Source: Hirudinaria manillensis (Eukaryota > Annelida > Clitellata > Hirudinida > Hirudinidae). From it: a stretch of DNA of 64,000 nt. Both the position numbers and the translations under genes were made by a program. Positions 8,046 through 62,460 of this stretch are shown piece by piece. The notes under the pieces were generated by a model that made no database searches, was not told where the DNA came from, and saw only the letters and a list, made by a program, of their open reading frames with translations. Numbering within the stretch: position 1 is the first letter of the stretch; every line of letters starts with the position of its first letter. The stretch spans positions 6,258,001 through 6,322,000 of the forward strand of contig CM067530.1 of assembly GCA_034509925.1 (NCBI GenBank), in the 5' to 3' direction.

Positions 8046-9049
8046 AATTACGATGGTTCAAAGCCTTTCAACCTGCCTCAAACCGTGACAGAAAAAGCAG
8101 TGTTTGTGTTTACGTGGAAGGAGATGTACAGTGTTTAGTTAATTAGCAGTTTATTTTTGACAGCATATGTTACACCGTTCCCACAAATTTTGTTACGTTC
8201 ATTTTTAGTTCACAACTGAGCTAAATTCCCATTGTTTTAAGAATCTCAAGTCTCGTTTGCGCCATTTCAAGAGATATTGCCATGTGAAGAATGTTTTTCC
8301 GCCTTTATCTGTTTTTTCTTATTATTTGAAGGTTTGTTTCAGCAATTACTTTTTTTATTTATGCAGTACAGCATTACTTCTACCTAAAACATTCAATGCG
8401 TCTGAAAAAAGTGGATAAAAAAGGACATCAAATGCATTTATTGGGATCCAAATGACCATAACTATTCCTATAACTACTGCTTTACGACCATTTGCAATGG
8501 ATATCATTCCTAATTTATTCAAAATGCCTTTTACGAGGTGTATCAAAAATGTTACATCTTTATTATTATGCGGGAACTGCACCCGTATTAAATGACGACA
8601 CCGGTTAGGTGCTTATATGCAAAGAAAAACTTGGATTCGAATTATTGAAGCATTGATGGTCAGTAACCATTGGCCACCTTCCAACACATTTGAATGATGT
8701 TACATGAACATTACGATGTTTATTACAAACTTCAGTGAAACTGATTTATTCGGAATAACAATTTCAAATCAAATTAAACGGCTGAATTCTAAATCTAAGT
8801 TATTAACATAAGCTAATGTCAACTACTTTTAAACAAAGCGGCAAATATTACAATGAAGGATTTTTTAAATTTTATTTATGGCAGAAGACACGATCAGTGT
8901 TAAGAGAAGTTTTTCTCATTTTTGGTATCCAATTCTGTAATCCCGATCTCCTGGTACAGAATATTTTCTGAAATATTTTAGGTAAACACTAAGGAAATGG
9001 TTCTTAATAAAAACTTCATTGAACATTAAATAATGTTAACAATTACAAT
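8046..9049. other. spacer upstream of COPZ
   Basis: AT-rich, about 1 kb. It must hold the COPZ promoter, but I see no clear TATA box or GC island. A 75-codon open frame at 8355-8582 (-) is hydrophobic but matches no family I know, so I do not annotate it as a gene. Confidence 0.4.
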
Positions 9050-9356
9050 TTATTCTTCGTGAAATAACCTTAGCTGTTGTTTGTAATTACGTGAAATTCT
9101 CAAAGGTTTATCATTTCTTTTTCCGAAACCATGACCAAATCTATCACCTGCTCCAAACTTAAAACCTCTGCCCAAACGAATGCTACTCATCTGCAAATAA
9201 AATGAGAACAATTATAATCTTTCCTTTTAGTTATAAACGTGGAAAAGTGGAATCTAAATGAGAATCCCTCACATCAGAATCGATTCCTTTGAATTCCGAG
9301 GAAGCAATCGAATGGAACAAAAGAGCCACCAGAAGAAATAAAATAATAGTTTTCAT
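9050..9356 (-). CDS. allatotropin / tetradecapeptide-type neuropeptide precursor
   Basis: Two exons, 9273-9356 and 9050-9190, joined in phase 0 (donor GTGAGG, acceptor TTTGCAG), encode 74 residues. Exon 1 begins with a clear signal peptide (MKTIILFLLVALLFHSIASS). Exon 2 holds GFKFGAGDRFGHGFGKR: a 14-residue peptide flanked by Arg on the N-side and Gly-Lys-Arg on the C-side, meaning prohormone cleavage and C-terminal amidation. The GFK start and HGF-amide end match the lophotrochozoan allatotropin group, especially the earthworm excitatory tetradecapeptide ETP (from memory GFKDGAADRISHGF-amide). Allatotropins act through an orexin-receptor-like GPCR on muscle, gut and heart. The rest is acidic spacer before and a basic C-terminal tail after. 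This is the only predicted peptide copy. A TTAAAAG box lies about 60 bases upstream of the ATG. Confidence 0.82.
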
Positions 9357-13423: not shown

Positions 13424-16292
13424 ATGGCATTGATCCACATATTGCTGTCAGTTTGTTTTTCTTCATTAAGTTTCACCTTCGTCACTTGTTGGACTCCTGT
13501 GATTGAAACATCGCTAGGGCCTATCATGGGAAATCGAAAAGCCTATAAACGTACACTTAATTGAAACCATATTCGAACCGAAATTGGGTTTTCACTAATT
13601 TTTAGTGCGACATTTTCTTCTTTAACAGGTTTAAAATATGATGAATTTCTTGGAATACCGTTCGGAGAGCCTCCGATAGGAGATTTGAGGTGGAAGAAAA
13701 CCAGGCCAGTTGAACCTTGGGCACCCCTCGTCTACGATGCCACCAAGTTTTCAGCTCATTGCATTCAATTTGTATCCACCTTTTATCCATTTATTGGCTT
13801 GGGTGGAAAAACATCTGAGGATTGTTTGTATTTGAACATTTGGGTTCCAGTTCGAGATGAAAGGTCTAACATCAATTTGAATTTTTAAATTATTCCATTT
13901 TTGAAATTAATATGGAGTAAACTTTCTTTCTTGGATAAGCACAAAACTTCCGGTCATCTTTTGGGTGTTCGGGGGCGGTTTTTTGATGGGAACTGGTGAA
14001 ATGTATCCTGGGTACTTGTTGGCTCTTCACACCAACACCATCGTTGTCACCTTTAACTATCGAGTCAGTTCTCTGGGATGGCTGTCTACTGGTACTTTTT
14101 GGAGACAGATTCATATCATTGTTATTAAATAACAATTGTTAATTTATTAATACTATGTAATTATTGTTATTGTTAATGCATTTACTACTACTATCTTTCA
14201 TCAAGAAGTATCTTACAACAGGAGATGAAAACATGCCAGGAAATTACGGCTTATGGGACACTCGAGCAGCTTTGCATTGGGTTCGCGATCACATCGGATC
14301 TTTCGGAGGTGATCCGAGTTTAATAACCGCGGTTGGACAATCAGCTGGAGCGGCTATTGTTAGTCATTTGGTCATTTCCCGGGAAACGAACAAACTCATA
14401 AAGAATGCCGTGTGCATGAGTGGAGCTGCCAGTGGATACTTCGGAGTATCGGTGCAGCCTCTCAGACTTTCTTTGTTGATGGCCAAGATCTTTGACTGTC
14501 CGGTAGAAAGCACGAAAGCCATAGAAATGTGCCTCAGAGGTATTGATGCCAAGTTGCTGGATTTTTGGGGAGCTTTGGGGCAGATGATCTTTGAAAAAAG
14601 GAACCCAACCCTCCTTCCTGTAGTCGATGGGGATTTCATTCACAAGCATCCGAGAGAAAGTTTTATGGAAGGAGAAGGTTTGTATCGTACCGGTATTGGG
14701 TTGTGGGTTACAGTTTTTTTAAATATTATTTTTAAGTCAACATTTACTTTATTTTTAATTAGAATCGAATTACAACGATGTAATTTGTAATTTTAACTAT
14801 TCCTGAATTCTCATTTCTAAAGTTAGACTGTCCTCTAAATAACGTAAATAGTTATAGAAAGCATAAAGAATGGATGTAAACTTAAAACTTTTAGTAATTA
14901 TGTATGATATTAGTCCATTACGATTCATTACAGGCAAACATTTGAATCTAATTTCTGGATATCTGTACGACGATGCGGCAGCCTTTGTCTACTCAAATCC
15001 GCTTGGGATGCCTGGAAAAAATAAAAATCATTCCGTGGTTTCAAACGAAAGTCTTTGGGATCACATGAGGTTTTTGACTAGTTTCAACTCGATTATTGAA
15101 AAAATCATTTCTTCTGAACTGTTCTTTTGAACTTTACAAGGCAGTGGTATGGATTTCTAGATAATGCAGATGAAATCATCACAAAGATTATCACCAGATA
15201 CCCCAACATGAACACCACTGATAAGGAAATTAGAGGCAGAGCTACAACACAGGCTATGACCGATTCCTGGTTTGCATCATCAAGCAACTGGGAATCAACA
15301 ATCCACGAGTATATCTTGATTACAATCCATTTGTTAAACTTTAATTCAATTCAGGAGCAAAATAAATTTTTGTGGATTAGTCAGAGCTTCTAATAAATAA
15401 AATTTGTTTTCAGGTCGTTTAAGCTTGGTCGGACTTATCAATTGCTCTTCAGACACAGACAAACTTTCATATCTGTCTACGAAGATTGGATCAACGGTAC
15501 GCATACTGACGATCTCTACAGTCTCTTTGGTCCTCCATTCATGCAAGTTTACAGAAAGTTGATTCTCAGGAAAGATTTCACTGAAAGTGACCGCAAAGTC
15601 AATAATCATCTGATGTCTTACATCGGAAACTTTGCTCACACGAGGTAATAAGTTATGGCCTTAGTTTTCTAACCGGTAATAGGCGATTTAATAATAATAA
15701 CAATAGTAATATTATGTATTATGTATTTAAATATTTTAATGACTCTCATAATTATCCATAACTTGAAATCTCGTTCACTCAATTAGAGATAAATTTAACT
15801 TTAAAATTGAACAGTGTAACATCCAATGAATCTTTGCTACAACCAGTGATCCTAACGAAGGACAGCACGAGGTGGCAGTCCATTGGCCCACGTTTGACAA
15901 CGTCAGTCAACAATTTGTTGAACTTTCGGCATCTCCTAGGCTAGAAACATTCCACACGAACAAAACCCTGGAGAGATTTCAGTTCCACTTGGATCTCATC
16001 AAGAATTACGTCTACCCTCCTCAGCCTTCCGTTCCCCCGTTCAAGGAGTCTGGTATGAAATTAATCTCTTATTTTGATTTATGTCTGGTATGAACTTAAT
16101 TTGTTATTTTTTTGTGTGAATTCCATTGCATCTTTATCGGCAGATATTGAAGAAGCTCTTGAAAAGATGAGAAGTTGGATGTATTCAATACTGGACAACC
16201 CACGCTATAAGCATTCAGTAGATGACTTAATCTCCAAATTCCAACAAAAAAGATTGCAAATTCTAAGTGAAAATGGAAAACTTTTAAAGTAA
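13424..16292 (+). CDS. secreted cholinesterase-type carboxylesterase
   Basis: Nine exons: 13424-13550, 13629-13863, 13940-14091, 14222-14677, 14934-15069, 15141-15308, 15414-15644, 15847-16052, 16144-16292. Phases close to 619 residues, about the size of acetylcholinesterase and other type-B carboxylesterases. The N-terminus (MALIHILLSVCFSSLSF) is a signal peptide, so the enzyme should be secreted. Family marks are YDEFLGIPFGEPP, SEDCLYLNIWVP, FWVFGGGF (oxyanion hole) and GQSAGAA with nucleophile Ser212. The catalytic acid position holds Asp (D337 in YLYDDAA) instead of the usual Glu, and His455 lies in WINGTHTDDLYSLFG. Spacing matches the AChE triad. No membrane segment follows, so it is not a neuroligin. 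The substrate cannot be read from sequence. The 3' end nearly meets the oppositely oriented glycosyltransferase. Confidence 0.9.
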
Positions 16293-16358: not shown

Positions 16359-18171
16359 TTATTTGCGAGAATATTTAACAGTTGGAAGACTATCGTAGTA
16401 GCCTCGGTCGAAAGAAAGCGATGGTGAGGATGTCCTGTTGCGATGTAACTCTTCCAAACAATCGTAACCCAAATAATCGAACGTTAAGTGAAATTTGTTG
16501 GCAAACATCTCCGGTCGTTTGGCCAGCCATACGACATCCTTGAGTCCAAATATGCAGATTCCTCGCACAACTTTCCCATCGCAGGGCCACTGCCCTTCGT
16601 ACTGGTTCACCCAGTTTTTAGCACGAATGGCAGGATGGATGGAATATTCGTCAGCCAAATGGAGATCGCCTTCAAAAGGAATTCGTTACACTAGATTAAT
16701 AAAATGGTGTAATTAATATTGAGGAAGTAATAAAATCATGTTCGAAATCTGTTAAAAACCAAACAAGAAAGTAGCCATCTAGCTACGAAGTAAATTGGCT
16801 TTATAACATCACTAATATAATTATTTTAACTAACCAGTGTATCCACCTGGCGCATTCAAGTGTGCGTTGTAGTTGAGAGTGTTCCAGTAATGTTCAGACG
16901 CGTGACCCGTGTCTTTGCACCAATCCAAAAAGTTAACTCCGTGGTTACTTTCCACCAAATATTCGGTCATTGCCGAGGAAAAGAAGCCATGAGTTTCCCC
17001 TTTAAAAAAGGTCAAGTTGGAGTATTTATAAGGTTCTTTAAGTTTCCCGGTGTTGTACAAAATCGTCTGCTGATACGTTTTGCTCCACCTATGACTCCAA
17101 ATATACTTCACTCGATCAAATTCCATTCTGGGGCAGAATTTAGCAACAACTAAGATTGATTGAATTGAAAATGTTCAAAATGTTTGTCTAACCTCAAACT
17201 CGATCCTGTAATATCATTGGAGCCATTGAAGATCTTGGCAATGTAAACCAGTTCAAAGTTTGTCCTCAGAGGAAATTCTTGCCCGGTTAGATTGATAAAG
17301 TACTTGTATTGGCCTCTGTAGTGTTCGAGCAGGTCTCTCATGCAACTCATTTCTGGCATAATTACACTCACGTCACCCCACTTGACTTTGTGAAGTTTAC
17401 TTGCAATCCAAACGTTGTTAAAGCAACCGACAATAGAACGGATGGCCTGGTGGAATAGCAGAGGAGACTTGACATCCACATGGATGCAGTAGAGGTTTTG
17501 AGGTTGGTAAATGGCTCTCAAGAGACGTTCTGTCTGTTCGACGTCTCTGAAAGTTGAAATACTGCAAGACAGGAATTGTGCAGTCCACATGTGATTCGCG
17601 AAATACTACAAAATTGCAATATAAGCATAAAAAACCTGAAAGCTAGAGGAAAATTTTCTTCCTCTGCTGAAAGTGGAACTTGAATATAAGCTCGATCGAT
17701 CTTAAACTTGGAACAGTTTTTGGTCCATTCCAGATAAGTTTCCTCGGGTATTGGAACCTTCAGATGATCCTCCATGAATCTTTTTCCTTTTTCCAATTCT
17801 TCAGGATCTCCGTCAAGCAGCCTGGAGCATTCAACTGCTTTCGTTGTCTCGATGTCTGCTAATTTAATCCTAGGTTTTAGTCTGAACAAATTCTTCGTCT
17901 TTGCCTTTTTCAGCAAAATGTTCGAATGATTGTTCGCCATTTTCAACTTCGAGCGACTCCATCTTTTGACGGCCTCTTTATTGCCGTGGTAGCGTGGAAG
18001 TTGTTTTATGAGTTCGTATATGCTGTGATCTCGATCAGCAATATCGACTTCTTTAAGAGAAGGTTCCAGATGTCGATGTATTTGAAGCCTCCAAATGAAG
18101 TAATTGACAAGCAATAGAAACAAATTTACGTAAACCAGAGACACTTTTCGTCCCAAAATCGAGATTCTCAT
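16359..18171 (-). CDS. core-2/I-branching-type beta-1,6-N-acetylglucosaminyltransferase
   Basis: Four minus-strand exons: 17636-18171, 17193-17561, 16835-17127, 16359-16669; phases close to 502 residues, longer than the usual 430-440. GCNT enzymes are Golgi type II membrane proteins that add branching GlcNAc to O-glycans or polylactosamine. The chosen start (18171) is followed by a basic patch and a membrane anchor (VYVNLFLLLVNYFIW). An in-frame ATG at 18255 would add 28 residues and cannot be excluded. A long stem of about 130 residues explains the extra length. The GT14 domain shows LLRAIYQPQNLYCIHVDVKS, CMRDLLEHY...YFINLTGQEFPLRTN, ETHGFFSSAMTEYLVES, WCKDTGHASEHYWNTL and RGICIFGLKDVVWLA...FANKF. 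The gene could be a GCNT1/3/4-like or annelid-specific member; xylosyltransferase is less likely. Confidence 0.88.
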
Positions 18172-18255
18172 GCTTGAAAAAACTTTAAAATAACGTATTA
18201 AACAAGGTGGACGATTTAGTTGTACGAGCACGGGATTATATTGTCGAGTAAACAA

Positions 18256-20399
18256 TGACTGCAGGCCTTTGAATAGCTCACAGGGTTCAAAAAGAATTGC
18301 TTATGGTTCAAAATGATGAATAAATCGAAAGAATTTTATAAAAGACCGTCTTATAATCGGGAGTGGCTGTAAAATGAGTTCATCCTTACTAAAGTGACAA
18401 AACATCAACATTCAATTTTTGGAATTGCTTGTGGGAAGCATACAGTTTGTGGAAGGTATTCTGTGAGAATTGTGACATGAATGGAATGCTCTCGCAAACA
18501 GATCATTACTTTAAATGACAACAAACTGCAACTTAATAAATGATTGAATAATTAAGAAAATTACAAAATAATTACCCTATAAATGAACAAGTAATCAAAA
18601 TAAGTCTCAAAATAAAAAAAAAATTCTGACTAGAATTTCGGCGACATGGCATTTGTGTTTGTATGTGACTGAATTGAATGTACACGGTCTAAAAGTACAC
18701 GTGACTGAAAGAACGAATCGGTCACAACATGTTGACAGATTAAAAATTTGAAATTTCGAATTACAAGAATATATTCACAAAATCCCAAAAGAACTTTCTG
18801 AATGTTTACTTGTCTACAACTATCATCACTATTTTGTCATGAAGTTTTATATTTTTTAAACAGGATTTGAAAATAAATAATTGATAAACTTTGAAAACTT
18901 TCTCAGCGCTAAAAAAAATCTTTTAATGCATGGGGTCTATTTTCAGGGAATTCAAACCACAAATAAAACTCTTTCGTTTCAACAAAAATATAATGTATGT
19001 TATATTTTATTAAAATAATATATATATATATGTTAACATTAATATACATTATTATATTTCGATATTATTATTATTATTATGTCGATTATTTGTCATATTA
19101 AATAACATTTGTAATTAGAGCTTCACTCGGTAAATTCCAGATCATTCATTAATTATGTGTAGATTTTCTACCGAAAAAAACGAACCGTAAACTCTGTAAA
19201 TTAATTACAAACTAATTACAAATGAAAGATTGCATTAAGCAATTTTATCGAAAGAAATAACGTTATCTAAAGTTCACGAATTGAATTGACATTTCTTGAT
19301 TCCATAGAAACCGAAACACACTTCCGTTCCGATGTCATTGGTCCATAGACCAATGAGATCTGATGCCGAATGGTACTCGTTATTATTATGATATTGTTTT
19401 TATTATATCTCTAAATCTTTAAATCGTTCATTCTAAATCGTTATTATTATGATATTGTTTTTATTATATCTCTAAAACTTATCGTGATTATTGTAAATTG
19501 TAATTGTTATTTACAATTTATAATAATGTAAGGGTTATATTCACTGTTTATAATTAATATTTAATTGATTGTCATCCGGTGATTGACGCTCACAAGTCTA
19601 ATAAAAAATTAATTCTCATTAAAAATAATGACAAACGTTACTTATTCAGGCTCCAAATAAAGAAGTTGAAAACATAAAATTCTGTTGAATTTCTCCAGTT
19701 GAGTTTCATTCCTTCCATCCGCCTCTAACAATTGATGTCAATCAATACTTAATGATCGTCAATCATAGGGTTGTTGTTATTGTGGTTGCTATTTGTCGTC
19801 GTTGTCGTCGTCGTTGCAGCCGTTGTTGGCGGCTTGACTGATCATCTTCCATCACACTTCAACAAAATGATGCAATTTCAACAGCACATTCTCGTTGCAT
19901 ATTTCAGAAGGCCGAACCCAATTTCGGCATTCCTTGAAGGATAAGCTTCAAAATAAAATTGTAATTATTGTAATTGTTATTGTAATTGTAATTGTAATTA
20001 TTATTATTATTATATTATATATATATATTATAATAATAATTACTATTATAATATATTAAGATAATATCCTTTGTATCTACCAAACTTAATAACGCTTGTA
20101 AGCCACCATTGCGAGTGTAACATCAATTAATCAATCAACCTGTAAAGTGAGGAATACAATTCATTGATTTATTTTCACAATTATCAATCAAATTATTAAT
20201 TAATGATTATTTATTATCATCAACAAATTCATTAACTAATTAATCACGGACTTCTCCAGAACCACACAAATGCTTGGAGTAAAGAATTGAAAAGCAATGA
20301 AAATATAAAAGAAATCAACAGCAACATCTTAATGAATTTTCATAAACCACAAAATAATAATTTATTGCTTAATTATAAATAAATAAATAAATAAATAAT
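18256..20399. other. AT-rich intergenic desert
   Basis: No gene is visible. It contains a partly duplicated segment (19378-19475), AT/TAA-rich tracts near 19010-19080 and 19970-20060, and a GTC/GTT-rich patch near 19790-19830. Confidence 0.5.
19378..19475. repeat. direct duplication of about 38 bp
   Basis: A unit beginning CGTTATTATTATGATATTG and continuing through TTTTTATTATATCTCTAAA occurs twice, about 58 bases apart, in the desert upstream of the Sp gene. The copies are almost identical. Confidence 0.8.
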
Positions 20400-21917: not shown

Positions 21918-21990
21918 CGATGATGACAACGACGACGATGATGACAACGATGACGATGATGATGATGCCGATTAAATTATTATGATGGTG
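21918..21990. repeat. GAT/GAC trinucleotide tract
   Basis: Imperfect (GAT)n/(GAC)n array, part of the simple-repeat-rich region upstream of the Sp gene. Confidence 0.8.
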
Positions 21991-22115
21991 ATGATAATGA
22001 TGACGATGGCGCCAGATAGGTGATGGCGAGGATGAAAAATGGTGAAATGGAGGACCGTAATTGGGGGTCGATCCTTGAGGTTAAGAAGTAATTTATTGCT
22101 CGATGAATAAGTAGA

Positions 22116-22352
22116 TGGATAGTGGATGGATGGATGGATGGATGGATGGATGGATGGATGGATGGATGGATGGATGGATGGATGGATGGATGGATGGATG
22201 GATGGATGGATGGATGGATGAAAGGATAGAGGAATGAATGGATGGACGAACGGACGGATAGAGGAATGAATGAATGGATGGACGGACGGATAGAGGAATG
22301 AATGGATGGACGGACGGATGGACGGATGGATTGATAGCATGGATGGATGGAT
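22116..22352. repeat. (GGAT)n tetranucleotide array
   Basis: A nearly perfect GGAT/ATGG array of about 100 bases followed by a degenerate continuation with GGACGGAC and GGAATGAATGGA variants. It leaves several frames open by chance, reading as Ile-His-Pro-Ser repeats on the minus strand; these are not genes. Confidence 0.95.
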
Positions 22353-22704
22353 GGGCAGAGGGATGAAAGTGGAACGCAGAGAATCGGCATCGTCTCAGGA
22401 GAGTGTTACGTTAATGTCTCGTAATGAAAGATAAGTGCTGCCATTGCTCAGGCAAATTGCAGTCCACGTTGCCTTACAACATCGGAACTCATTTTCCACG
22501 GCTGAAGTTCGTACCTCTCCAAGTGGCCGAGAGTGGAAATTTCCAGGAAGGCAAAACAAAGCAAAGCTGCACTCGAGAATTGTTTTGTTTTATTAAAAAT
22601 ATTTATTTTCAAGCGGAGGTTTTCCCCAGAATAAATTTGTCAAATTACTATTATTAGTATAATCACTTAAATTAATGTTATACATTACCATTTTGTTATT
22701 ATTA

Positions 22705-23465: not shown

Positions 23466-23822
23466 TCTTACAAGATTCTTCCTTCGATGTTCTCGTTTGC
23501 TTCTTAAGTGACTCGAAAGACAAAAAGTATATTTGTATATTTGAGGTTGGTTTTACCGTTGTTTGTTTGATTTGAAAGATTAAATTATTTAATTTATATT
23601 TTAAGAAAGCAAATACAAATTATCTTCTTTAGTGATGCAGCAATTGATCGAAGTGAAATTTTAAATTGATTAATTCATCTCTGAGAATTCACTTCGAACT
23701 CAGATGGAATGCATCAATCGTAACTGGAAGTCCGACCTCTCAGAATAAATAAATTCTTTTTGCGTAAACATAAACGTTTGATTGATACTCAAATTCTTGC
23801 AGTTTCCTGAAACATTCCCACT

Positions 23823-25142
23823 ATGGACGATCTCTTGTTGAAATCTTTCTCCCTGTGGAAAAGGGACCAAAAATCAGCTGATGGCGGAGAAAACAACACT
23901 CCTCCTACCCAGTGTCGAGTCGATGAATATTCATCCGCCATCGAAACTCCCCAGTACCTACCCGGCGTCTCTCCTCAGACCGGTGTTTACCATGGCAACC
24001 AATCGTGCAGCGAAGACCAGAAGGAAGGCCACAAAACGTCCCAGCAAAGATCTTATCCCAGCGTTTACTCGAGATTAGCCGGTGCTCACAGCAACTCCAT
24101 CTATGACGCTTGGCCCTTCCATCTGGCTGGAAGTACTGGAAGTTCATTCAAGAGATCGACTTCTCCTTCCAAGAAGACAGGACTGAATCCTTCAACTGGC
24201 CATTCCTTATGGGACATGTATACTCCGACTTGCAACAATACGTGGCTCTCTGAATTTCCAACCTTTCCGGCTTCTCTTGGATTCCCCGATCCGAGTATGT
24301 TCGGCAATTTGCCGTCTTCATCATTCGCATCCACCTTTGGTCACAGCTCTCAACAGCAGCAACAACAGCAACAGCAACAGCAGCAGCAGCAGCAACAACA
24401 GCAGCAGCAACACTTACAGTCACCTTCAACAGCGTCGTCGACGCTATCCATGCAGAGCCACTCCGAAGACAATGCAGAAGTGGTCTTCAGCAAACCCAAG
24501 TCCGACTTTAGCTCGTATCTCATCGACAACTCCATTCACACTCCTTTTCCTTCGAAGCAACTTCAACTCAATGGCACTCGTCCCTCGAATCGAAGGTACC
24601 CCACCGGGAGGCCGAACTGTGACTGCCCCAACTGCCAGGAGATTGAAAAGCTAGGTCCGGCAGCCGATTACCTCCGCAAGACCATTCAGCATTGCTGTCA
24701 CGTTCCTGGTTGCGGAAAGGTTTATAACAAAACTTCCCACTTGAAGGCCCACCTGAGATGGCACACGGGCGAGAGATCGTTCGTCTGCAACTGGCTCTTC
24801 TGCGGAAAGAGATTCACGCGGTCGGACGAACTCCAGCGACATTTGAGGACCCACACCGGGGAAAAGAGGTTCGTTTGCAACGTCTGCAACAAGAGATTCA
24901 CGAGAAGCGACCATCTCACCAAACACGTCAAAACTCACTGCTGCGCCGTCGAAGGTGAAATCAAAGTGGAAGAAGCCGAGGGGAAGCAACACGACGAAAG
25001 GGAATTCTCCAGGAACGCAGACCAGGACGAGACGGAGTTTTTCCGTCAACTCCCTGGCAACGGTTGTCAAGAGACCGAGAGCATGCATCACGACAGGTCC
25101 GTGAAACATTCGCCTCCCTCTAAAACCGTCTTCAACTCTTGA
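23823..25142 (+). CDS. Sp6-9/buttonhead-family zinc-finger transcription factor
   Basis: A single coding exon of 439 residues. Sp factors bind GC/GT boxes; the Sp6-9 subgroup (Sp8/9, buttonhead) patterns appendages, head and nervous system in animals. The N-terminus includes [16 protein letters not shown], like the WWD...WL motif of Sp6-9. A poly-Gln tract of mixed CAG/CAA codons lies at about residues 177-198. The buttonhead box CDCPNCQE begins near residue 266. Three C2H2 fingers follow at about 290-372, with linkers HTGER and HTGEK and the recognition helices [16 protein letters not shown] and RSDHLTKH typical of Sp proteins. [11 protein letters not shown] in finger 2 favours Sp6-9 over Sp5. 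The start is the first ATG after a 3' splice acceptor. It stands alone in about 12 kb without another supported gene, as developmental regulators often do. Confidence 0.93.
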
Positions 25143-27720: not shown

Positions 27721-28733
27721 ACAACGACCCATTAGGAATGACAATCACGTCATTTGGTTTTGTTTTTTTTTTTAACTGCAGGTGGAGCCATGGAAACAGG
27801 CTTTGTTTTGCTCCTTACAAACATTTATCGACTGAAATTCAGAAAGATTTGTGCGTTTGGCCCTTGGTGGTGATGATGATGACGACGATGACGACGACCA
27901 CGATGACGATGATGATGGAAGAGTTTGTAATCTGAGGTGTTGTTTCCTTTTATATTTATTAGGCTTTATTAGGGTCGATAGTCTTAATTTGTTTATTATT
28001 TAAAAGAAATATTAATTAATTTATAATTGAGAAAGTTTAAGTTACAATTTAAACAATATTTAATTTAATTCAATTTAATTTTATATATTCGCTTGACCTC
28101 AGAAGCCGGCTCTATAGCACAGGACAATGTGCTGTGTTTGCAACCTATTCACGAGTGCTGTTTGAAATGTTAGCATCTGAAGATAGCTATTATTAAGGCT
28201 ATTATGTATTAATATGTTTATCCATAAATAATTATCGTGAATAATTATTATGCGCAAGGCAAACTCATTGATTGTTATGTTATTCAATTTCAAAGGCTTA
28301 AGAAAAATTGTGAAAATGCTTTTGCTAAATGATAAAATCGTATCCAAGAAATGAGACGCTGTTTAACGCTGGAGTCAAACATCCCCCAGTCCACTGTATG
28401 ATCCCCCAACCCGACCAAGGAGACTCAAGGGTTAGGAAAAAGGTCAATGCTCTAAAGATCTCAGATCGAGAATTTCAAAATTACTACTCTTATTTTTTGC
28501 TGCATTATTTAATAATTATTATTACAATTATTCATTTATATTACTTTGCTAATATTTTTTTTATTAATAGCACCACTGGCATTGGTAGTTGATTCATTGA
28601 TGTCAAAACCGGAAACATTCTTTGAGAGAAAGTTGAATGTAAATAATTTGCAGAATGAAAATTATGAAAACTGAGTAATGCGAGTTAAATAATGCAGATT
28701 AATGATCAACACGGTGAAAATGACAATGTAATG

Positions 28734-28988
<255 letters not shown>

Positions 28989-30044
28989 TAATTATTAATC
29001 GTGGTCGAGTGAGTTACAACTCATCCAGCGAGCATGTACTCCACGCGCCGTCGGATGAAAGGAGCGCCGAAAAAGGACTTTGGATCGTGGAAATATTAAC
29101 GAGGAACCAACTGAACTCCCGCTCACTGGCGCTGTTCTCGGGTTGTTGTTGTTGTTCGAACGTCTACACGTTGTCATGACAACAGGCAGAGTTCCTAACT
29201 TCATCGTCTTCGTCGTCGTCGTGTTTTGAGGATCGTCAGTTGATAAAACAAGGAGATTTGAAAGTTTGTCTCGTTTCAACTTCCTGCCTCTCGTCTGATT
29301 TGAGGTTTTTCCTTTTTTTTAATTCATCTGATCGTTTGTTGTTGTTGTCGGTTTTAAAGTCTGTTTGCACGTTGGTTTACGTTTGTTTGTTTGTTCGTTT
29401 GTCTGCTTATTTGTATGTTTGTTTGTTTATCTGTATGTTTGTTTACTTGTCTGCCTTCCTGACGTGTTCGTCGGAAGTTTTGGAATGAATTTTTAAGATA
29501 TTTAATTGTTGATATTCAAATATGTCCGATCAAAGAATTTTTTGGTAGTTTGTAGTTCGTCGAAAAGTTTCTGAAAGACACGAAACACCGTGAAGTGGAA
29601 TAGTTTTTAAAAAATGCCATTTTATTTATTTATTTTTGGCTGAAATTTCTGAATACATTAATGAATTATTTATTATGACTGAAATCGAAATAATAAATAA
29701 ATATTTTATTAAATGTAATTATACTAAAAGTAAAATTAAGCAAGTGTCCAGAAATTAACGTTGCGTCAAAGAATCTCCTTGAAAGTTTGTAAACAGATTC
29801 GAAGAAAAAGCGATTAGAAAGGATTAAATCCATATTGTCAATTAATGTCCAGTAAAATTCATCAAATACACAAATTTATTTATTTTAAATTTATTTTAAA
29901 AGAAAACTTTTAAATTAATTTCATGCCTTCTGAGAGAATCTTGAGAACAATCTCTGTCCGTTTTTTTGTCGAATTTCAAGATTTTATTTTTAATTTCTCG
30001 TGGACTTAAATTGGCAAACATTTCAGAGAGAAAGGCAAGGAACG

Positions 30045-48169: not shown

Positions 48170-49870
48170 TATATTTTTTGATTTTATTTTATTTACAAAC
48201 TGAAGGGCCCAATAGGACCACTAGCACAGTTTGGTCAATTCGAGTAAAGGACAAATCGAGAGTGAGTCGTGGTGACGATAATGACGACAATGAGAATCAG
48301 TTATATATAAAGTATTTGCTAAGATCAAATTCACGTATGAGTGCGTTGAATCTTGAAACAGTTGTTGCATTAGTAAAATCAGGTGGCAGTGAATTCCAAG
48401 GTTGAACAATCCTATTGCAATAGAGTAGGTCCAAGTACACTGCCCTGGGGGACGCCAATGGTGACAGGCCATATCTGATAAAATTCCACCGATATTAACA
48501 CGTTGGCTCCTCAATGATATAGGAGTCGGTGAGCCATCCCATAATGTTGCCACTGATGCCGCAATGAGGTAGTTTGCTTAAGAGTTTGTAGTGTGATACT
48601 GAGTCAAAAGCCTTTTTAAAGTCTTTTTGAAGCTATGCAACGTCCACCGACTGTCTAGATTGGGGTGCTTCCGACCACTGTTGCATACAATCAAGAATAT
48701 TTGTTACAGTAGATCTGCCTCTGCCAAATCTGTGCTGATCCCTGTTTATTAATTTGTGGTGCAGTAAATGGTGCATAATTGCTTTGTTGATGATCTTCTC
48801 CATTACACGACAACAAGTTGATGTGATCGAAATTGGTCTGTAGTTTTTAGGGAGAACCGTAGGTCCTTTCTTATATATAGGAGTAACCAATGCAATTTTC
48901 CATTCCGCGGGTAATCTTTGATCTTTAAGGGAAATATCGAATATGTGGGCAAGTGGCAAAACCAGAAATGTTGCACATCTCTTTAAAAATATATTGGGTA
49001 TTCCATCTGGACCTAAAGATAGTGAAGAGTCAAGGCTTAACAACATCAATCGCACTATATCTGGTGTGAATCTATTTTCTCCTATTTCTGTTTGCTTTTG
49101 AAGAGAAAATGCCGGTTTCTTGCCATCATCAGTTGTAAAAACTGAGGAAAAGTAGTAGTTGAAGATGTCACTGTTTCTGATGGGTCACTAGTCAGGGCAC
49201 CGGAGGGATGGGCGATCTCAGATAAGACGGAACGGGTGTGAAGCTTACTAACGACATATCTGTGGAACCTTCCAAAATTTTTGCTCCTAAGTAAATTAAG
49301 TTCCAATGATGCATAGTGTTGCTTGATGGATTTACTACAAGTTTTGGCAAAACTGTAGTATCTGGTCCTATCGGCAATACTTCGTCCACTCCTCCAGATC
49401 TTCAATAGCTTAGATTTTTTATTGAGCAGTTTGTTGATAAAATGAGGATGTCCGTTTTTGCGTTTTTCGATCACAGAAAGGAAATTTAGGGATAAACATG
49501 CTTATGGCTTGATCAATTTGATTTTTGAACTCTTTCCAACAGCAGTCCACATTTGGACAGAATTGAAATAGTGTGTTCCAGTCAATATATGAGAGATATT
49601 CATTAATCAGCTTGTAGTTTCCTTTCCTGAAGTTAGGAGACGAAGACGATGGTTGGTGATATAAAGGTTTGCAGAAAATGTTTTGTCTTGAAAGAAATGA
49701 CATTGTGATCGCTTGTTGAGATAGGGCACAGTGTTTCGATTTCTGATATGAACTGAGAGTCGTTCGACAAGACAAGATCAAGGATGTTGACATGGCGTTT
49801 GCAGATGTAACAAACTGATGGAACCCATAATCATTGAAAAAGTCAAACATTCTATAGTTATTGTTATTTA
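48170..49870 (-). mobile_element. decayed, 5'-truncated non-LTR retrotransposon (Jockey/CR1-like)
   Basis: Read on the minus strand, the segment begins inside the endonuclease (about 49850). It continues through the linker and reverse-transcriptase blocks SLGPDGIPNIFLKRC, KNYRPISITSTCCRVMEKI and DFKKAFDSVSHYKLLSKL, with frameshifts and an in-frame stop near 48640. At about 48430-48480 [11 protein letters not shown] jumps straight into a C-terminal block (NRIVQPWNSLPPDF), so the FADD catalytic region is deleted. The copy is dead. It differs in sequence from the intact LINE at 52380-56299. Confidence 0.85.
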
Positions 49871-51055: not shown

Positions 51056-54000
51056 TCAGAATTTGCTTGCAAACACAGCAATCACCCAGCAAGGAACCTT
51101 GACCCACCGGGGGATGAAGTGAGAAATCCTCCAATCTTTAATCAGAAATTTAAGAGATCTGAAACTCATGGGAGATTTACCTGAAAAAAATTATCAAAGT
51201 TTCATTATAAACCTATGGAATATTTAAATTTTCAATATTAAACAAGTACATAAAAACAAAACAAATAAACCAATTAATAGAACAAATAAAGAGACCATTC
51301 ACATCCCTGAAGTTGTACTCAGAAGCTAGGTCTGCTGTAAGAAGGATGCGACCCGATTTTTTCATTTTGTCTTTATCTGTTAAATTAATAAATGAAAAAT
51401 TAATGCATGTGTTTATTAATTATGATATTTTCAATTTTCAAGTTAATAAATAAAATGGCCAAACCAATTAAATGACAATACCTGCAGCCAAATGACAAAT
51501 GGCCACTCCAGAAAATTCAGTAGTTTCCAGGACTTCAGGGGAGTACAACTAAAATTGAAAAGTCTGTTATATAAAACTTTTAAAGACCTTGATTTTGTAT
51601 GTTGATTATTGCCATTAGCATATCGTGGACATTAGCATCAAATGTAGAATTTATCATCAAATAATGTTACAATGTCATTTAATCTCAAGAAACCATGATT
51701 TTCACCTTTGAGGCTTTCTCATTTCCTACCACATTTAGAATATTATCTTTGACAAATTCAGTCTCCACAGGACCTGGCCACAAGCTAACATAGCAAACAT
51801 TGTGCTTTCTTAACTCATGTGCACAGTCAGCAGCCATTCTGTCACACTGTCATAAATAAATGCAACTCAGTTATAATTCAATATTATTAAGTAATCACAT
51901 GGCAACTCACTGCTTCTTTGCCCACTCCATAGGGTACATTGAAAAGATATTTTAACCCACCAGCTGAAGAAAGGTTGACAATCAGGCCATTCTTTTTTGG
52001 TACCATAAATTTGGCTGCATATACTGAACAAATGTAGTGATTCCTAAAAATTAAATGCTCAGATTCAATATGACGGTTATAATAAAGAATGTATTGATAC
52101 AAATGCAGAAAGGTCTTACTAACCAGTAATGCTGAGCAGTTTTCATAACAAGTATGAATATTAGAATTTATTATTCTGAATTAACCTTAATTAACCAAAA
52201 TTTACCTCAAGTCAACATTATTGATAGAATCCCACATGGCAATGGGCTGTTCCCAAAATGGAATCCCTATATTTCTAAAAATATCCTAAATAATTAAAAG
52301 TGCCATAAAGCTCAGGATAAAACTTAAATTAAATTAATAAAATTTTTCTTGTTTACGTTCTTGGCGTTGCATTACCGCTCTGCTAGAGCCGACGATAAAC
52401 GGCTAATTTCTTGCAGTAATTAGTAGGAATCATACTATTTTAGGTTTTATTTTTTCATTCGGGTCATGCCTAGGCTAAGGGGTCAAAAATCACCCGTTTG
52501 CGTTGCAACGGAAATAGCGGACATATTGGGGCTAAAGCTTTGTCATAGCTGCATGGAATGCAACGATAGTGCGTTAAAATCCTTGGAAGATTTGATAAAT
52601 AAAGAGAGCCAGGAGATGCATCTTGAAGTTTTACTGAAGGATGTCGAAGTCATTAAAAAGACAATAGCGAAAAACGAGAATATCATGGAAGCTATTGAGG
52701 AACAAAACAAGCGAATCGACTCCCTCAGAGCTAGAATGGAAGAAATTTCTACAAGTTCTTCTCAAAAGCTTGAAGAAAGCCACCAGGATAGCAAGGCTTG
52801 GTCCAGTTTATTTGGACATAAGGTGGAAACTCTGGTTACAAAAGTGGGGGAGACCAATTCAACAATTGCAGTAAATAACGACAGGCAGCTGAGGAGAAAT
52901 AACCTGGTTCTGTTTAATCTGAATGAGAATGAGGCCAATTCAAAAGCTAAAGACAAGGAAGAAGTGCTGAGGATCATCAAGGAGATTACAGACAACAGCA
53001 TGGACAAAGAAATTAGGGATTGCTTTAGATTAGGCAAGAGAGGAGAAGCTACAAAACCAAGACCACTGTTGATTAAATTAGATAATCTCTTCAGCAGAAA
53101 TTTGATCCTGGATTCTGCATTTAAATTAAGAAAAAGTGAATCTTTCAAGAAAGTCATAATATCTCATGATCTGTCCAAAGGTGACAGGGACGAGAGAAAT
53201 AAATTACTGGAAGAAAAGAAAAAAGAAATCACAGCTAGAGACGATGTTTCCAAATGGAATTTTGTTGTTAGAGGTCAGCCTGGAGAATTTCATGTGGTTG
53301 CATATAGGAAGCAAAATTTTTAGATGTGAAAGGTTCAAAAAGAAACAAAACAGTCAAGGATATCTCAGTATTTTATAGCAATGTTGACTCCCTGCCCAAT
53401 AAATTTTCTGAACTCAAGGTTTATGTAAATACATTGGAAGTGGTTCCAGAATTGATAATCTTGACCGAGATCAATCCAAAAAATTTCAAGTATTCTTGTC
53501 AATTGTCAGAGTTCCAGTTGACGGGTTATCAAATGGCTTCGTCGGGTTTTGCAGCAAAGGGTAAAAGAGGTATACTGCTTTATTATAAAGAAAGTTTGTC
53601 TATGTCTGAAGTTAGTTTTGACTCTGCATTTGAGGAATTTTTGTGCTTGAAGTTGTTTATCTCCGGTTCCATTGTAAATATCCTGGTTGTGTACAGAAGT
53701 CCTAACTGTGCATTGAAAAATAATGACAATTTTATTTTGCTGATTAAGGATTTCTTTCTGCAAAAGGGAGATCATCTGTTGATGGGTGATTTCAATTTGC
53801 CGCAAATCAACTGGATTAATTACTCATGCGCCGGGAGTGAAGATAGCATCGAGAGCATATTTTTGGAATTCATTAGGGACAAACATTTGATACAACACGT
53901 GATTGAACCTACAAGAAGAAGAATAAAAGAGACTCCTCATATCTTAGATTTAGTTATAACAGATAAAGAACTGATATATGACGTAAGACACAGACCTCCC

Positions 54001-56951
54001 CTAGGAAACAGTGATCATGATGTCATAACATTCGGGACTTTTATCAAGCATGCAACCGCAGAAGATGTCCGAAAAAAATTTTGTTTTGAACTAGGCAATT
54101 ACGAAGAAATGAAATCATCTTTGAGGGAGATTTTCGAGAGGCTGCCGACGTCGGATGATTCATTGGTCACAGATTGGTGTTTCTTTCGAGATTCATTGGT
54201 GTCGTCAGCTCAGCAATATGTGCCCTTGAAAACAGAAAGAAAAAAGTTCAGATTTAAAATGACAGAGGAGCTGAAAAACTTGATCAAGAAGAAACATCAG
54301 CTATGGAGAAAGTTATACAGACATGGAGAAGATGTTAAAACTGATTTTAACCAGGTGAGAGAAAAGGTGAGGGTACTCTCTAGGAACTTGATTGTTGAAA
54401 GTCAGAATCGCATCGCAATGGAGTGCAGAAAAAATCCCAAATTATTCTGGAGTTATGTTAATAAGAGAACATCAAGTAGAAGCAAAATTGCCACTCTGGT
54501 TGAAGATGGTAGAGAGATCACTGGAGACAAGGAAAAAGCAGATTTATTTGCAAAGTTTTTTTCTTTGGTGTACGAGTCTGAGGAACAGCATCAAATAAAT
54601 GAAGTTTTCCAACCAAAAGTTCCAGCAGAGGGAATGGCCAAGCTTAAAGTTGATACTTTTATGGTAGCAAAAAAGTTAAGCCACTTGAACATATACAAAT
54701 CAGCAGGCCCTGACGGTGTTCATACCAGAATTTTGAGGGAAACTAGATATGAGATTGCAGAATATTTGTGTAAAATCTTTGGGGGGTCTCTGGATACTGC
54801 CACAGTTTTTGAAGACTGGAAGATCAGTAACATAGTCCCCCTACACAAGAAGGGGTACAAAAATGATGTAAGAAATTACAGACCAATCGCCTTGACCTCA
54901 ATTTGTTGTAAAATTCTAGAGTCCCTCATCAAGGATCACTTAATGGATTACTTTCTGAGTAATGGGTTGTTCTGTCCGGGCCAGTTTGGTTTCATTCCGG
55001 GCCGATCAACTACATTGCAGTTACTAAGATTTTTGGATGTTGTTACTGAAGCTGTTGATAAGGGCACTGAAATAGATGTAGTGTACACTGATTTGGAGAA
55101 GGCCTTTGACAAAATATCACATTGCAAGTTGTTGTTCAAATTGGAAAGATATGGAGTTCACCCGGCTTTGATTCAGTGGATTAAAAATTATTTAACACAG
55201 AGATCATTTAGGGTTGTGGTGAATGGAGCTTCCTCTGAACTATACCCAGTTACCAGTGGTGTGCCGCAGGGCAGTGTCCTGGGGCCAGTTCTCTTTATCA
55301 TTTACATTAATGACATATACAATGTCTGTAGCAACATCTTTTTGTTTGCAGACGATGCTAAAATTTATAAAATGCTGGGACCAGGAGACAGTTATCTATT
55401 GCAAAATGATATAAGCAGGGTCATCAATTGGTATAATGTGTGGGGCATGAAAGTCAACTGGGATAAATGCTGCTGTATGAAATTTGGAACTCACCAGGCA
55501 GATTACGAGTACACAGTAACAGACACAGAGGGAACTCTTCACTTGATACCCAAGGTAGACAAAATATCAGATCTTGGAATCACCTTGGACTCGAAACTGG
55601 GATTTAAGGAGCATATTTTGCAGAGAGTCAATAGGGCTAACCAGATGTTGGGAGTCATTTATAGAAACTTCAAGCATCTGTCAGAAGATGCTTTGGTTTC
55701 AGTATACAAGGCCCTAGTGAGATCACATCTGGAATATGCTGTGCAGGTATGGAATCCATACAGAAAGGGTCTGGTGGATACTTTAGAAAGTGTGCAGCAT
55801 AGATTCACCCATATGTGCAAATCATGCAAAGACTTAGAATATACTGATAGATTAAAAATTTTGAAACTGCCCTCCCTGGTGTACAGACGAAAAAGGGCTG
55901 ATTTGATATTGATGTTCAATATCATCAGAGGAACTGCACCAGAATTCCTATGCCCTAGGCTTATGTTTTGCCCAGAGGAGAGAACGAGGGGCCATGATTG
56001 GAAACTATCAACAAACATTGCTCACAGGGATTTGAGGAAGTTTTTTTTCAGCAATAGAGTTGTCCAAGAGTGGAATGATCTTCCTCGGTCGGTTGTCGGT
56101 GCTCCAAACCTGGACATCTTCAAAATGTTATTGGATGATTTTTTTGGGGATTGTAAATATTTGATGTGACTGGTTGTTTTATTGTTTGTTTGATATGTGG
56201 AGGGTTTTGCTTTTTGTTTACTTAAGTAATTTGTGTTAGGCGAGGGGTTCGCCCGTGCCTTTATGTGATAATAAAAAAAAAAAAAAAAAAAAAAAAAAAT
56301 GTAATTAATTACAATCTTTTGCAACTTACATTGACAGCTGAATAAGCATTATTGACCAAAATATCCAACTGTCCTTGTTGATCTCTTTCAATTTGTTCAA
56401 ACACTCTCTTCACATCTTCATCCTTTGAGTGATCACAATGAATTGGGTAACATTTTCCACCATGACTTTCAATCTGCATGAAATGTTCTCTTACTAATAA
56501 AAATATCTAGAACGCTATTTGATTATTTTTACCATCCAAAATCGCTAAGTCAGCTGCCAATTTAGTTTAATCTTATTATATGCATATTTAGTGTCTCAAA
56601 AAATGAAATTATTTTCATTTAATTTCCCTTAATAATAAAAATTGTGACAACTTTAGAGATTAAAATAACTCAAAGCATTTCTGTCCCAAAGTTCTGCTCA
56701 AAATTTGTCACATACCTCAGCTGCAGTCTCTTTGAGGGATCCTACTGCATTATCTTTAAATAACGTCCTCCCTTTGGTTTAAATAGTTAAGATTAGTCAA
56801 TGATATAATTAACTTTTAATTGCAAGAAATTACCTGTTATATAGACAATTGCACCAGCCTTAGCCAACTGCACGGCTATTCCTTTACCGATTCCTCTGCT
56901 GCCTCCAGTGACTAAGCACACTTTGCCGCACAAATCAACTTTCGCAACCAT
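51056..56951 (-). CDS. DHRS1: dehydrogenase/reductase SDR family member 1
   Basis: Nine minus-strand exons: 56834-56951, 56716-56771, 56330-56473, 52206-52285, 51911-52043, 51706-51846, 51482-51548, 51296-51376, 51056-51180. Phases close to 314 residues (human DHRS1 is 313). DHRS1 is an ER-associated NADPH-dependent short-chain dehydrogenase acting on steroids and carbonyl xenobiotics. The Rossmann motif [11 protein letters not shown] is near residues 14-24, followed by [11 protein letters not shown], the catalytic Ser in NLSSAGG and Tyr/Lys in [38 protein letters not shown] and the C-terminal [16 protein letters not shown] are specific to DHRS1. Intron 3 (52286-56329) is 4 kb because a full LINE sits in it in antisense; exon 3's donor lies only 29 bases from its poly(A) end. 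All coding exons remain intact. Confidence 0.95.
52466..53323 (+). CDS. LINE ORF1 protein (coiled coil plus RRM-like domain)
   Basis: 285 residues. Residues about 45-145 are heptad-rich (many Lys/Glu/Leu, e.g. [20 protein letters not shown]), predicting a coiled coil for trimer or multimer formation. Residues about 150-250 ([50 protein letters not shown]) have the pattern of the RRM-like domain in invertebrate LINE ORF1 proteins, which bind element RNA as chaperones. No CCHC knuckles are seen; CHSCMEC at residues 33-39 is a possible metal site. The stop TAG (53321-53323) is preceded by AAATTTT, a -1 slip heptamer. Confidence 0.85.
   Translation: MPRLRGQKSPVCVATEIADILGLKLCHSCMECNDSALKSLEDLINKESQEMHLEVLLKDVEVIKKTIAKNENIMEAIEEQNKRIDSLRARMEEISTSSSQKLEESHQDSKAWSSLFGHKVETLVTKVGETNSTIAVNNDRQLRRNNLVLFNLNENEANSKAKDKEEVLRIIKEITDNSMDKEIRDCFRLGKRGEATKPRPLLIKLDNLFSRNLILDSAFKLRKSESFKKVIISHDLSKGDRDERNKLLEEKKKEITARDDVSKWNFVVRGQPGEFHVVAYRKQNF
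53314..53320 (+). promoter_or_regulatory. candidate -1 programmed frameshift heptamer A AAT TTT
   Basis: In the ORF1 frame the codons are CAA AAT TTT TAG, so the seven bases 53314-53320 fit X XXY YYZ exactly and abut the stop. A -1 slip would continue with TTA at 53320 directly into the ORF2 frame. No strong downstream hairpin is obvious by eye. Confidence 0.45.
53326..56169 (+). CDS. LINE ORF2 endonuclease/reverse transcriptase
   Basis: About 947 residues without an internal stop. The APE-type endonuclease spans about residues 10-230 ([43 protein letters not shown]). The reverse transcriptase spans about 450-740 ([72 protein letters not shown], and catalytic FADDAKIYK). A typical C-terminal block follows ([13 protein letters not shown]...[14 protein letters not shown]). 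The frame opens at 53308, with no ATG until about residue 70, inside the endonuclease. So it must be expressed by frameshift, re-initiation or a non-AUG codon. Its frame is -1 relative to ORF1. Confidence 0.93.
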   Translation: MKGSKRNKTVKDISVFYSNVDSLPNKFSELKVYVNTLEVVPELIILTEINPKNFKYSCQLSEFQLTGYQMASSGFAAKGKRGILLYYKESLSMSEVSFDSAFEEFLCLKLFISGSIVNILVVYRSPNCALKNNDNFILLIKDFFLQKGDHLLMGDFNLPQINWINYSCAGSEDSIESIFLEFIRDKHLIQHVIEPTRRRIKETPHILDLVITDKELIYDVRHRPPLGNSDHDVITFGTFIKHATAEDVRKKFCFELGNYEEMKSSLREIFERLPTSDDSLVTDWCFFRDSLVSSAQQYVPLKTERKKFRFKMTEELKNLIKKKHQLWRKLYRHGEDVKTDFNQVREKVRVLSRNLIVESQNRIAMECRKNPKLFWSYVNKRTSSRSKIATLVEDGREITGDKEKADLFAKFFSLVYESEEQHQINEVFQPKVPAEGMAKLKVDTFMVAKKLSHLNIYKSAGPDGVHTRILRETRYEIAEYLCKIFGGSLDTATVFEDWKISNIVPLHKKGYKNDVRNYRPIALTSICCKILESLIKDHLMDYFLSNGLFCPGQFGFIPGRSTTLQLLRFLDVVTEAVDKGTEIDVVYTDLEKAFDKISHCKLLFKLERYGVHPALIQWIKNYLTQRSFRVVVNGASSELYPVTSGVPQGSVLGPVLFIIYINDIYNVCSNIFLFADDAKIYKMLGPGDSYLLQNDISRVINWYNVWGMKVNWDKCCCMKFGTHQADYEYTVTDTEGTLHLIPKVDKISDLGITLDSKLGFKEHILQRVNRANQMLGVIYRNFKHLSEDALVSVYKALVRSHLEYAVQVWNPYRKGLVDTLESVQHRFTHMCKSCKDLEYTDRLKILKLPSLVYRRKRADLILMFNIIRGTAPEFLCPRLMFCPEERTRGHDWKLSTNIAHRDLRKFFFSNRVVQEWNDLPRSVVGAPNLDIFKMLLDDFFGDCKYLM

Positions 56952-60461: not shown

Positions 60462-62460
60462 ATACACCAGCTGTAAAATTTAAATAAAAAATTAAGTAGT
60501 TTGTTGGTGATGAGACCCAAATCATGATGTATTATATTTCAGCTGTGCTTGGCAATTGGTAGATGTAAATGGTAAATTTAGTTAACTCAACATGCTTATT
60601 AGGGAACTATTTAAAAGCTTGGTTGCAATGCTTCTCTATATATTGATTATTATCTATATAGTGCAGATATATTGTTTTAGTGCATTGTCTTTCAAGTTTC
60701 TACTGTTTTTGAGGTTGAAGTGAGTTATCTTCTAGTCATGGAAGCTTTGGATTCTCACTGAAGTGTTTTGGAGAATGCTATATATGCTCTTAAAATTGAC
60801 TTTCTAACTTTATTGGCAGTACTTTTACATTTTTGGTGATGCATGCTCTGTTGACTTGGAACCAAATCTTCAATAGAAATCTTAATGAGTGCTACAAAAT
60901 AAATTTGTTGATCCTTGTGTTGTTAGCAGCTGCATTAAAGGGGGCATCCATATTGTAAGCTTTCTCAGGGTTGTTTTGGGGACGCGTTTTTGTGATTTGA
61001 AAAGAACTTTCGGGTAATACCTGGATTGGCTTTAGTAGGAAAGTTGGGGCAATTGAAGGGATGAAATCATGGCGTTGATGGTATTTTAGCATTTGGCGGG
61101 GAAGGACTGTCCATATGTCCGCGCAACTACAGAATAATTAAAATATATTTGTTTGCAGTAACATATATAATGATAATTTTTATTGTCTCATTATTATCTC
61201 AGAGAATATCTTTCATACAGTTTTTCAAATATCAATGTTACGGTAAATTAGACTTTAATGCTTAAATGAACAGGCATGCGAAGATAAAATTAGTGAAGAT
61301 ATCACAATTCTTCAAATCGATGAGATCAACCGCAACCCTGGGAATAACGGAGGGCCGCCGACATCAAGGAATGGTACAAAATGGTCAAACCAAAAATCCC
61401 AAATCGTAAGACTTTAACATTAGTAAAGCTTTGAACATTGTCTCATTGTGAATTTAATTGTTATTTTCACTATTTTATTATATTTATTATACAGTCGTAT
61501 TGGTTGCAATCTATAACGTCAGTATAGAACTACGTATTGCTCTACTTGAGATTTATACAAACTGTTTTAATTCTATTGCGTTTGTTTAACATATCAAATT
61601 TAATGTACTTGATGCATATAAGTTAATTGCGTCAAGATTTTAGTTGTTTGATTCATAGCTGTACTATAGCAGCCATCTTGGCTTTGTATTGATGGAGATT
61701 TTTATCGACTTGGAGTTATGTAAATTTTTATTTAAGGACCTTATTTTCAAGTTATTAATAATTAGTCGCATTTAAAATCTAATCGGATAAGTTTGGAATA
61801 CGCTGAAATTTTGCATTTGAGCGAGGCAAGAACATTTGTAATTTGTTTACATCAGCTTAACTAAAATTGTCTTTATAACATGCAAAAAGAGTATGATTCC
61901 GACAATGTTTGACTAAAGTAAGACGATAGGTTTGGATATGAGGTTATTAAATATATTGTCGTCTTATTGTGAGGTTTATCGCACTAAGGTCTACTACGCA
62001 ATTTTACTTTCGTGACTATTTAACATCACACAATAATTAATCACAAATTCCATTCACTGCAATTTGAAGCACTTTGGCAGACTAGAAGCTTTTAAGATGT
62101 CGAAACAGTGGGTCAACTCAGACATTTGACTTTAATTATTTTGGAACTTTTTGATTCAAGTATTAAATTTTGTAATTTTGAACTAATTCTTAAGTTTAAA
62201 ATTGTTAAGCCCTGCATATTTATGGTAAGTTTACTTATATTTGAGCCATTCAACTTGAATTCTTGATTATATCATGAAATTTACTTTACTTATTACATTA
62301 GGTACAGTATGATAGAGTATTAACTAATATAATAAAGTAATAGTAATAAGGTGGTACATTTTTTTAATGTATTTTGTTTATTTTGTGACTTATTTTTCTT
62401 TTTTTTTGTTTCAGATGACACACGTTTATATATTAGATTGCTCTGGTTAATGATTTCTTC
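60462..62460. other. 3' flank and 5' region of the winged-helix gene
   Basis: Mostly AT-rich non-coding. It includes the isolated exon-like stretch at 61274-61405 and an acceptor GTTTCAG at about 62414, which probably starts the exon holding the next ATG. Nothing else is supported. Confidence 0.4.
61274..61405 (+). other. isolated exon-like segment
   Basis: 132 bases (44 codons, phase 0 both ends) bounded by AACAG and GTAAGA, reading ACEDKISEDITILQIDE and then a Gly/Pro/Asn-rich stretch. GC content is clearly above the flanks. It could be a 5' exon of the winged-helix gene, an alternative 3' exon of the gene before it, or chance. Confidence 0.3.

Follow-up and report, generated by a model that had tools for sequence, protein, structure and literature searches.

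The allatotropin-type peptides of lophotrochozoans all end in HGF or HGY among the published members that we draw on here. The allatotropin of the annelid Platynereis dumerilii is GFRTGAYDRFSHGFa (Table 1 of PMC4749568), the allatotropin-related peptide of Patinopecten is GFRQGIVMRIGHGFa (PMC5996578), and that of Aplysia is GFRLNSASRVAHGYa (PMC9082908). Allatotropin-like genes have also been reported in Capitella and in the leech Helobdella, the latter with reference to Veenstra 2011 (PMC3797082). Because the allatotropin system and the vertebrate orexin system are regarded as orthologous (PMC9082908, PMC4357254), the leech suits the question of whether these systems originally served to control feeding.

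In this work we analyzed a window of 64 kb, meaning the whole stretch of 64,000 nucleotides at C5:6258001-6322000 of the Hirudinaria manillensis genome, together with the assembly from which it comes (148.43 Mb in 23 contigs). Positions given without a contig name are those of the window. The leech nervous system serves as a classical preparation in studies of feeding and of the control of muscle. We conclude that the window very probably carries the leech allatotropin gene, with a precursor that would be cut to a single amidated peptide acting on an orexin-type receptor, most likely the one on C5. The coding strand is the minus strand, which the initial annotation of this DNA had not given. 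The family is already known in annelids and has been reported in another leech, and the discovery is modest in that respect; the leech peptide and its likely receptor now have coordinates.

The predicted peptide and its closest relatives

The predicted mature peptide, GFKFGAGDRFGHGF-amide, occupies positions 9125..9166 of the minus strand and has 14 residues, as read from the translation and from similarity to known peptides. Its predicted form is that of the allatotropin family, peptides of about 13-14 residues with a GF[KR] start and an aromatic, amidated end, and it is encoded as GFKFGAGDRFGHGF-GKR. Aligned without gaps, it has 10 of its 14 residues in common with Platynereis allatotropin, 8 with the Patinopecten peptide and 5 with the Aplysia peptide. 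Together with the orexin-type receptor gene found in the same genome, these identities bear out the earlier reading of the locus as the local allatotropin orthologue. The leech and Platynereis peptides have in common the length of 14 residues, the amide end (predicted in the leech) and the lack of gaps; G1, F2, G5, A6, D8, R9, F10, H12, G13 and F14 are the same in both, whereas the leech has K3 for R3, F4 for T4, G7 for Y7 and G11 for S11. The Patinopecten and Aplysia peptides share with the leech the length, the GF[KR] start, R9 and the HG[FY]-amide end, but differ in the centre of the peptide, and in Aplysia the C-terminal residue is Y.

The Eisenia tetradecapeptide (ETP) offers a further comparison, its sequence being reportedly that of Ukena et al. 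1995. Here 10 of the 14 residues are again identical, GFK and GA.DR being present in both peptides, and the leech has F4 for D4, G7 for A7, F10 for I10 and G11 for S11. The statement in the initial annotation that the central FGAGDRFG differs from ETP is therefore right only in part: some of its residues are different, but GA.DR is common to ETP and Platynereis. An allatotropin-like gene of the same family, likewise in a leech, has been reported for Helobdella robusta (PMC3797082). At E up to 1 the precursor matched none of the Pfam families, and GFKFGAGDRFGHGF and its parts GFKFGA and DRFGHGF had no match in open-access main texts.

Gene structure and predicted precursor processing

Coding exon 1 (9273..9356, minus strand) holds the start codon, the signal-peptide-like part (roughly the first 18 to 20 residues) and the first part of a spacer; its translation from 9356 to 9273 is MKTIILFLLVALLFHSIASSEFKGIDSD, 28 residues. 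Coding exon 2 (9050..9190, minus strand) translates from 9190 to 9050 as MSSIRLGRGFKFGAGDRFGHGFGKRNDKPLRISRNYKQQLRLFHEE followed by the stop, 46 residues, and contains the remainder of the spacer, the peptide cassette, a C-terminal propeptide of 21 residues and the stop codon TAA. The spliced precursor thus has 28 + 46 = 74 residues, arranged as the signal-peptide-like start, RLGR, GFKFGAGDRFGHGF, an amide-donor G and KR. Between the exons lies a phase-0 intron of 82 bases (9191..9272, minus strand; GTGAGG ... TTTTATTTGCAG). The intron is needed, since the exon 1 frame read without splicing reaches a stop at 9231, ahead of the cassette. When all GT/AG pairs with an intron of at least 45 bases were listed, exactly one could connect Met9356 with the cassette in frame, and this pair combines the top donor (2.73) and the top acceptor (8.26) of the stretch, the scores being those of a generic metazoan matrix and not of one measured in Hirudinaria manillensis. 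The 9190/9273 junction proposed earlier is this one in-frame option. The donor GAT|GTGAGG is only fair, which counts against the gene model.

The hydropathy of exon 1 reaches a maximum of 3.24 over 12 residues. Signal-peptide-like starts are rare in the window: among its 431 open stretches that begin with Met and are at least 25 residues long, two passed the hydropathy test, one being exon 1 and the other an unrelated frame at 60592 (+). Signal cleavage would fall after about 18-20 residues. Directly before the peptide the sequence reads RLGR (9167..9178, minus strand), a predicted prohormone convertase site of the RxxR type; convertase cleavage follows an RxxR rule, and the fact that this upstream site is RxxR rather than dibasic counts against the reading. 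The peptide is followed by GKR (9116..9124, minus strand), that is, a glycine amide donor and a dibasic cleavage site, and from this glycine GFKFGAGDRFGHGF is predicted to be amidated. The precursor therefore has a signal-like start by hydropathy, convertase sites on both sides of the peptide and an amide-donor glycine, and its 74 residues contain one cassette. A single cassette is typical of the allatotropin family. The two-exon precursor of 74 residues with a signal-peptide-like start and one cassette stands as it was initially annotated.

Two putative polyadenylation signals are present on the minus strand: one AATAAA (9049..9054) overlaps the stop codon (TAA = 9052-9050), and a second AATAAA starts at 8876. 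The first of these would permit a very short 3' untranslated region. It also bears on the possibility that the neuropeptide exon is functional and the gene model around it incomplete, with a further 3' exon, or else a different donor site behind KR, the 74-residue form then being an isoform or a misprediction. The C-terminal 21 residues are without outside support from Pfam or from the genome search, which speaks for such a model; on the other hand, an in-frame stop closes exon 2 with the AATAAA overlapping it, and a working precursor needs nothing more. We regard an incomplete model as unlikely, although it deserves to be kept in mind, and as regards the family it is compatible with the identification as leech allatotropin.

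Candidate receptor and proposed mechanism

A stretch of human orexin receptor 2 (208 residues) gave 65 matches in the genome at E up to 1e-5. Two orexin-type receptor pieces lie on the minus strand of C5, at 7011416-7011652 (47% identical to human orexin receptor 2) and at 7007668-7008033 (41% identical), and a third piece containing helix 7 extends from C5:7007007 downwards, also on the minus strand. The receptor gene spans approximately C5:7006800-7011652 (minus strand) and comprises three or more exon pieces; the peptide gene is on the same chromosome at a distance of about 740 kb. The two pieces matched by the search are in order and together reach 156 bits. No other single match exceeds 86 bits, and two other pairs of pieces, either of which may belong to a single gene, total 94 (C12) and 83 (C6). 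When the three C5 pieces were searched back against PDB, the 12 best rows for each were human orexin receptor constructs, all of them derived from two human proteins only (orexin receptors 1 and 2). Measured from the best orexin row, the next family falls short by 11 bits (neurokinin NK3), 18 bits (neuropeptide Y2) and 5 bits (thyrotropin-releasing hormone receptor); measured from the weakest orexin construct, the gaps are 0.6, 14 and 0.8 bits, i.e., less than 1 bit for two of the three pieces. At the end of helix 3 the C5 receptor has ERY, compared with DRW in the human orexin receptor; this and the small margins count against the reading. The genome thus contains a receptor of the orexin/allatotropin type, as judged against orexin receptors.

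The same search found further peptide-receptor pieces at C6:5724455-5741685 (minus strand), which may be one gene. This C6 gene (5.72-5.74 Mb) was rejected as a second orexin-type receptor: its first piece, the one piece compared, is nearest to neuropeptide FF receptors, at 58.5 bits versus 50.2 for the best orexin row.

Since allatotropin receptors are described as orthologues of orexin receptors (PMC4357254, PMC9082908), with two allatotropin receptors characterised in Platynereis (PMC9082908), the C5 receptor would be the obvious partner of the leech peptide. The following scheme is read from sequence and from related systems, from transcription through every step after translation (cleavage, amidation, receptor pairing and physiology). 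Signal peptidase would take about 18-20 residues off the 74-residue secreted precursor, prohormone convertase would cut at two places, behind RLGR and behind KR, trimming of the exposed basic residues would follow, and conversion of the C-terminal glycine to an amide would release GFKFGAGDRFGHGF-amide. The peptide would activate an orexin-type G protein-coupled receptor, most likely the C5 one about 740 kb away. Activation may raise calcium and perhaps cAMP, the responses reported for the locust receptor (PMC4357254), and would excite feeding neurons and the muscle of gut, pharynx or body wall, as the allatotropin-related peptide is described to excite muscle or feeding neurons in Aplysia (PMC9082908).

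We also considered an extension of this scheme, in which ligand and receptor have changed together in this leech line (F4 in the peptide; ERY for DRW in the receptor) so that the pair is selective against other annelid allatotropins, and a D-amino-acid form may be used in addition. The leech has F at position 4, where Platynereis has T, Patinopecten Q, ETP D and Aplysia L. In the Aplysia epimer the changed residue is said to be number 2. A D-amino-acid form is conceivable in the leech because an epimer of this kind has been reported for the Aplysia peptide, according to a title among the references of PMC9082908. Such an extension seems to us rather improbable, and the plainer scheme of an amidated leech allatotropin acting on an orexin-type receptor is preferred.

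Copy number in the genome

Searches of the 148.43 Mb assembly are consistent with the single copy claimed for this gene. With the 74-residue precursor as query and E up to 10, the whole assembly returned only the gene's own two exons. The coding pattern HG[FY]GK[RS] occurs at 5 places in the genome, and only the place of the peptide gene has an allatotropin-like 14-mer ahead of it; the other four have no allatotropin-like sequence ahead in a continuous frame. A reversed-pattern control occurs at 6 places, so the 5 places are at chance level. The precursor and pattern searches, on which a second working copy elsewhere was rejected, are blind to a copy with a different dibasic site or with a cassette split by an intron. 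The Platynereis 17-mer (allatotropin plus GKR), a query so short that its outcome carries little weight, gave 0 matches in the genome at E up to 10, the leech locus itself included.

These results also speak to the idea that the locus is a decayed or silent allatotropin copy, with the working gene elsewhere or lost. The genome searches returned no better copy; the frame is intact, as are the start, the splice sites, the cassette and the processing sites, and the pieces of the receptor gene have been kept. A decayed copy is accordingly very improbable, and we continue to treat the locus as the working allatotropin gene.

Comparison with FCAP-type peptides and random sequences

Other lophotrochozoan families have HGF- or HGY-amide ends as well, for example the molluscan FCAP-type peptides with LHGY or LHGF ends, and the leech peptide might in principle belong to one of these. 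DR combined with an HGF end is also seen in some scallop FCAP peptides, but the scallop precursors hold 21 and 13 copies compared with one copy in the leech, and the FCAP peptides displayed alongside are without a GF[KR] start, whereas the leech peptide has GFK and 14 ungapped residues (PMC5996578). By copy number, GFK start and 14-residue length, in comparison with these displayed FCAP peptides, the FCAP-type identity was rejected; we consider membership of such a family highly improbable and keep to allatotropin.

We then compared the similarity with chance expectation. Each 14-mer was scored by its mean BLOSUM62 score against the three published allatotropins (Platynereis, Patinopecten and Aplysia). 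In the six frames of the window 32 14-mers are followed by G[KR][KR]; GFKFGAGDRFGHGF scores 44.3 and the next scores -0.7. As random controls we used 40 + 1000 = 1040 first-order Markov windows. When G[KR][KR] was required, the best random 14-mer had 12.0 in the 40 windows and 19.7 in the 1000; when it was not required, one 14-mer of 43.0 was found in the 40 windows, and the best of the 1000 was 31.0. The 14-mer of 43.0 proved to be a coincidence without GKR, and 44.3 was reached in 0 of 1040 windows. The ungapped similarity is therefore beyond chance (44.3 versus 19.7 with G[KR][KR] and 43.0 without it). Since one in 1040 random windows gave 43.0 without G[KR][KR], the 14-mer taken by itself is less compelling than it seems at first. 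It is the cassette, the signal sequence and the splice sites that jointly carry the identification; the Markov control covers the 14-mer plus G[KR][KR], and the signal sequence and splice sites are additional to it. Chance similarity of a random open frame to allatotropin, for which that value of 43.0 would be the one argument, was rejected and is hardly conceivable given that the best of 1040 random windows falls to 19.7 once G[KR][KR] is required, and that directly upstream there are a signal-like start and the sole in-frame splice pair, which also has the best scores.

Annelid setting and other features of the window

The initial annotation had used the peptide to place the DNA in Annelida. 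The phylum is backed independently of the peptide by annelid erythrocruorin linker domains, of which the genome has 8 matches, 7 above the curated cut-off, compared with none in 14 control genomes; one linker exon gives a weak match to extracellular haemoglobin linkers in PDB (best E 0.002). Destabilase-family domains have 13 matches in the genome and none in the 14 control genomes. One destabilase-family exon gives an alignment of 63 residues with PDB entry 8bbu (named Lysozyme; E 1.4e-28), which we take to be the destabilase of the leech Hirudo.

Several other features were observed in the window. A frame of 443 residues at 23811-25142 (+) contains a CDCPNCQ stretch and a polyglutamine run besides three stretches of C2H2 zinc fingers, and presumably encodes an Sp/buttonhead-type transcription factor. 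A carboxylesterase-family exon (PF00135, E 1.7e-40) is located at 14161-14790 (+) and a Core-2/I-branching glycosyltransferase exon (PF02485, E 1.9e-24) at 17150-17605 (-). The latter is overlapped by a frame at 17518-18300 (-) that matched no Pfam family, and a further open frame is present at 16830-17174 (-). Long simple repeats with HPSI- and poly-N open frames occupy 21972-22405 (-) and 28724-29179 (+). The frame of 953 residues at 53308-56169 (+) has endonuclease and reverse transcriptase domains and is probably a non-LTR retrotransposon; a frame of 298 residues lies just upstream of it (52427-53323), and another reverse transcriptase fragment is present at 48633-49184 on the minus strand.
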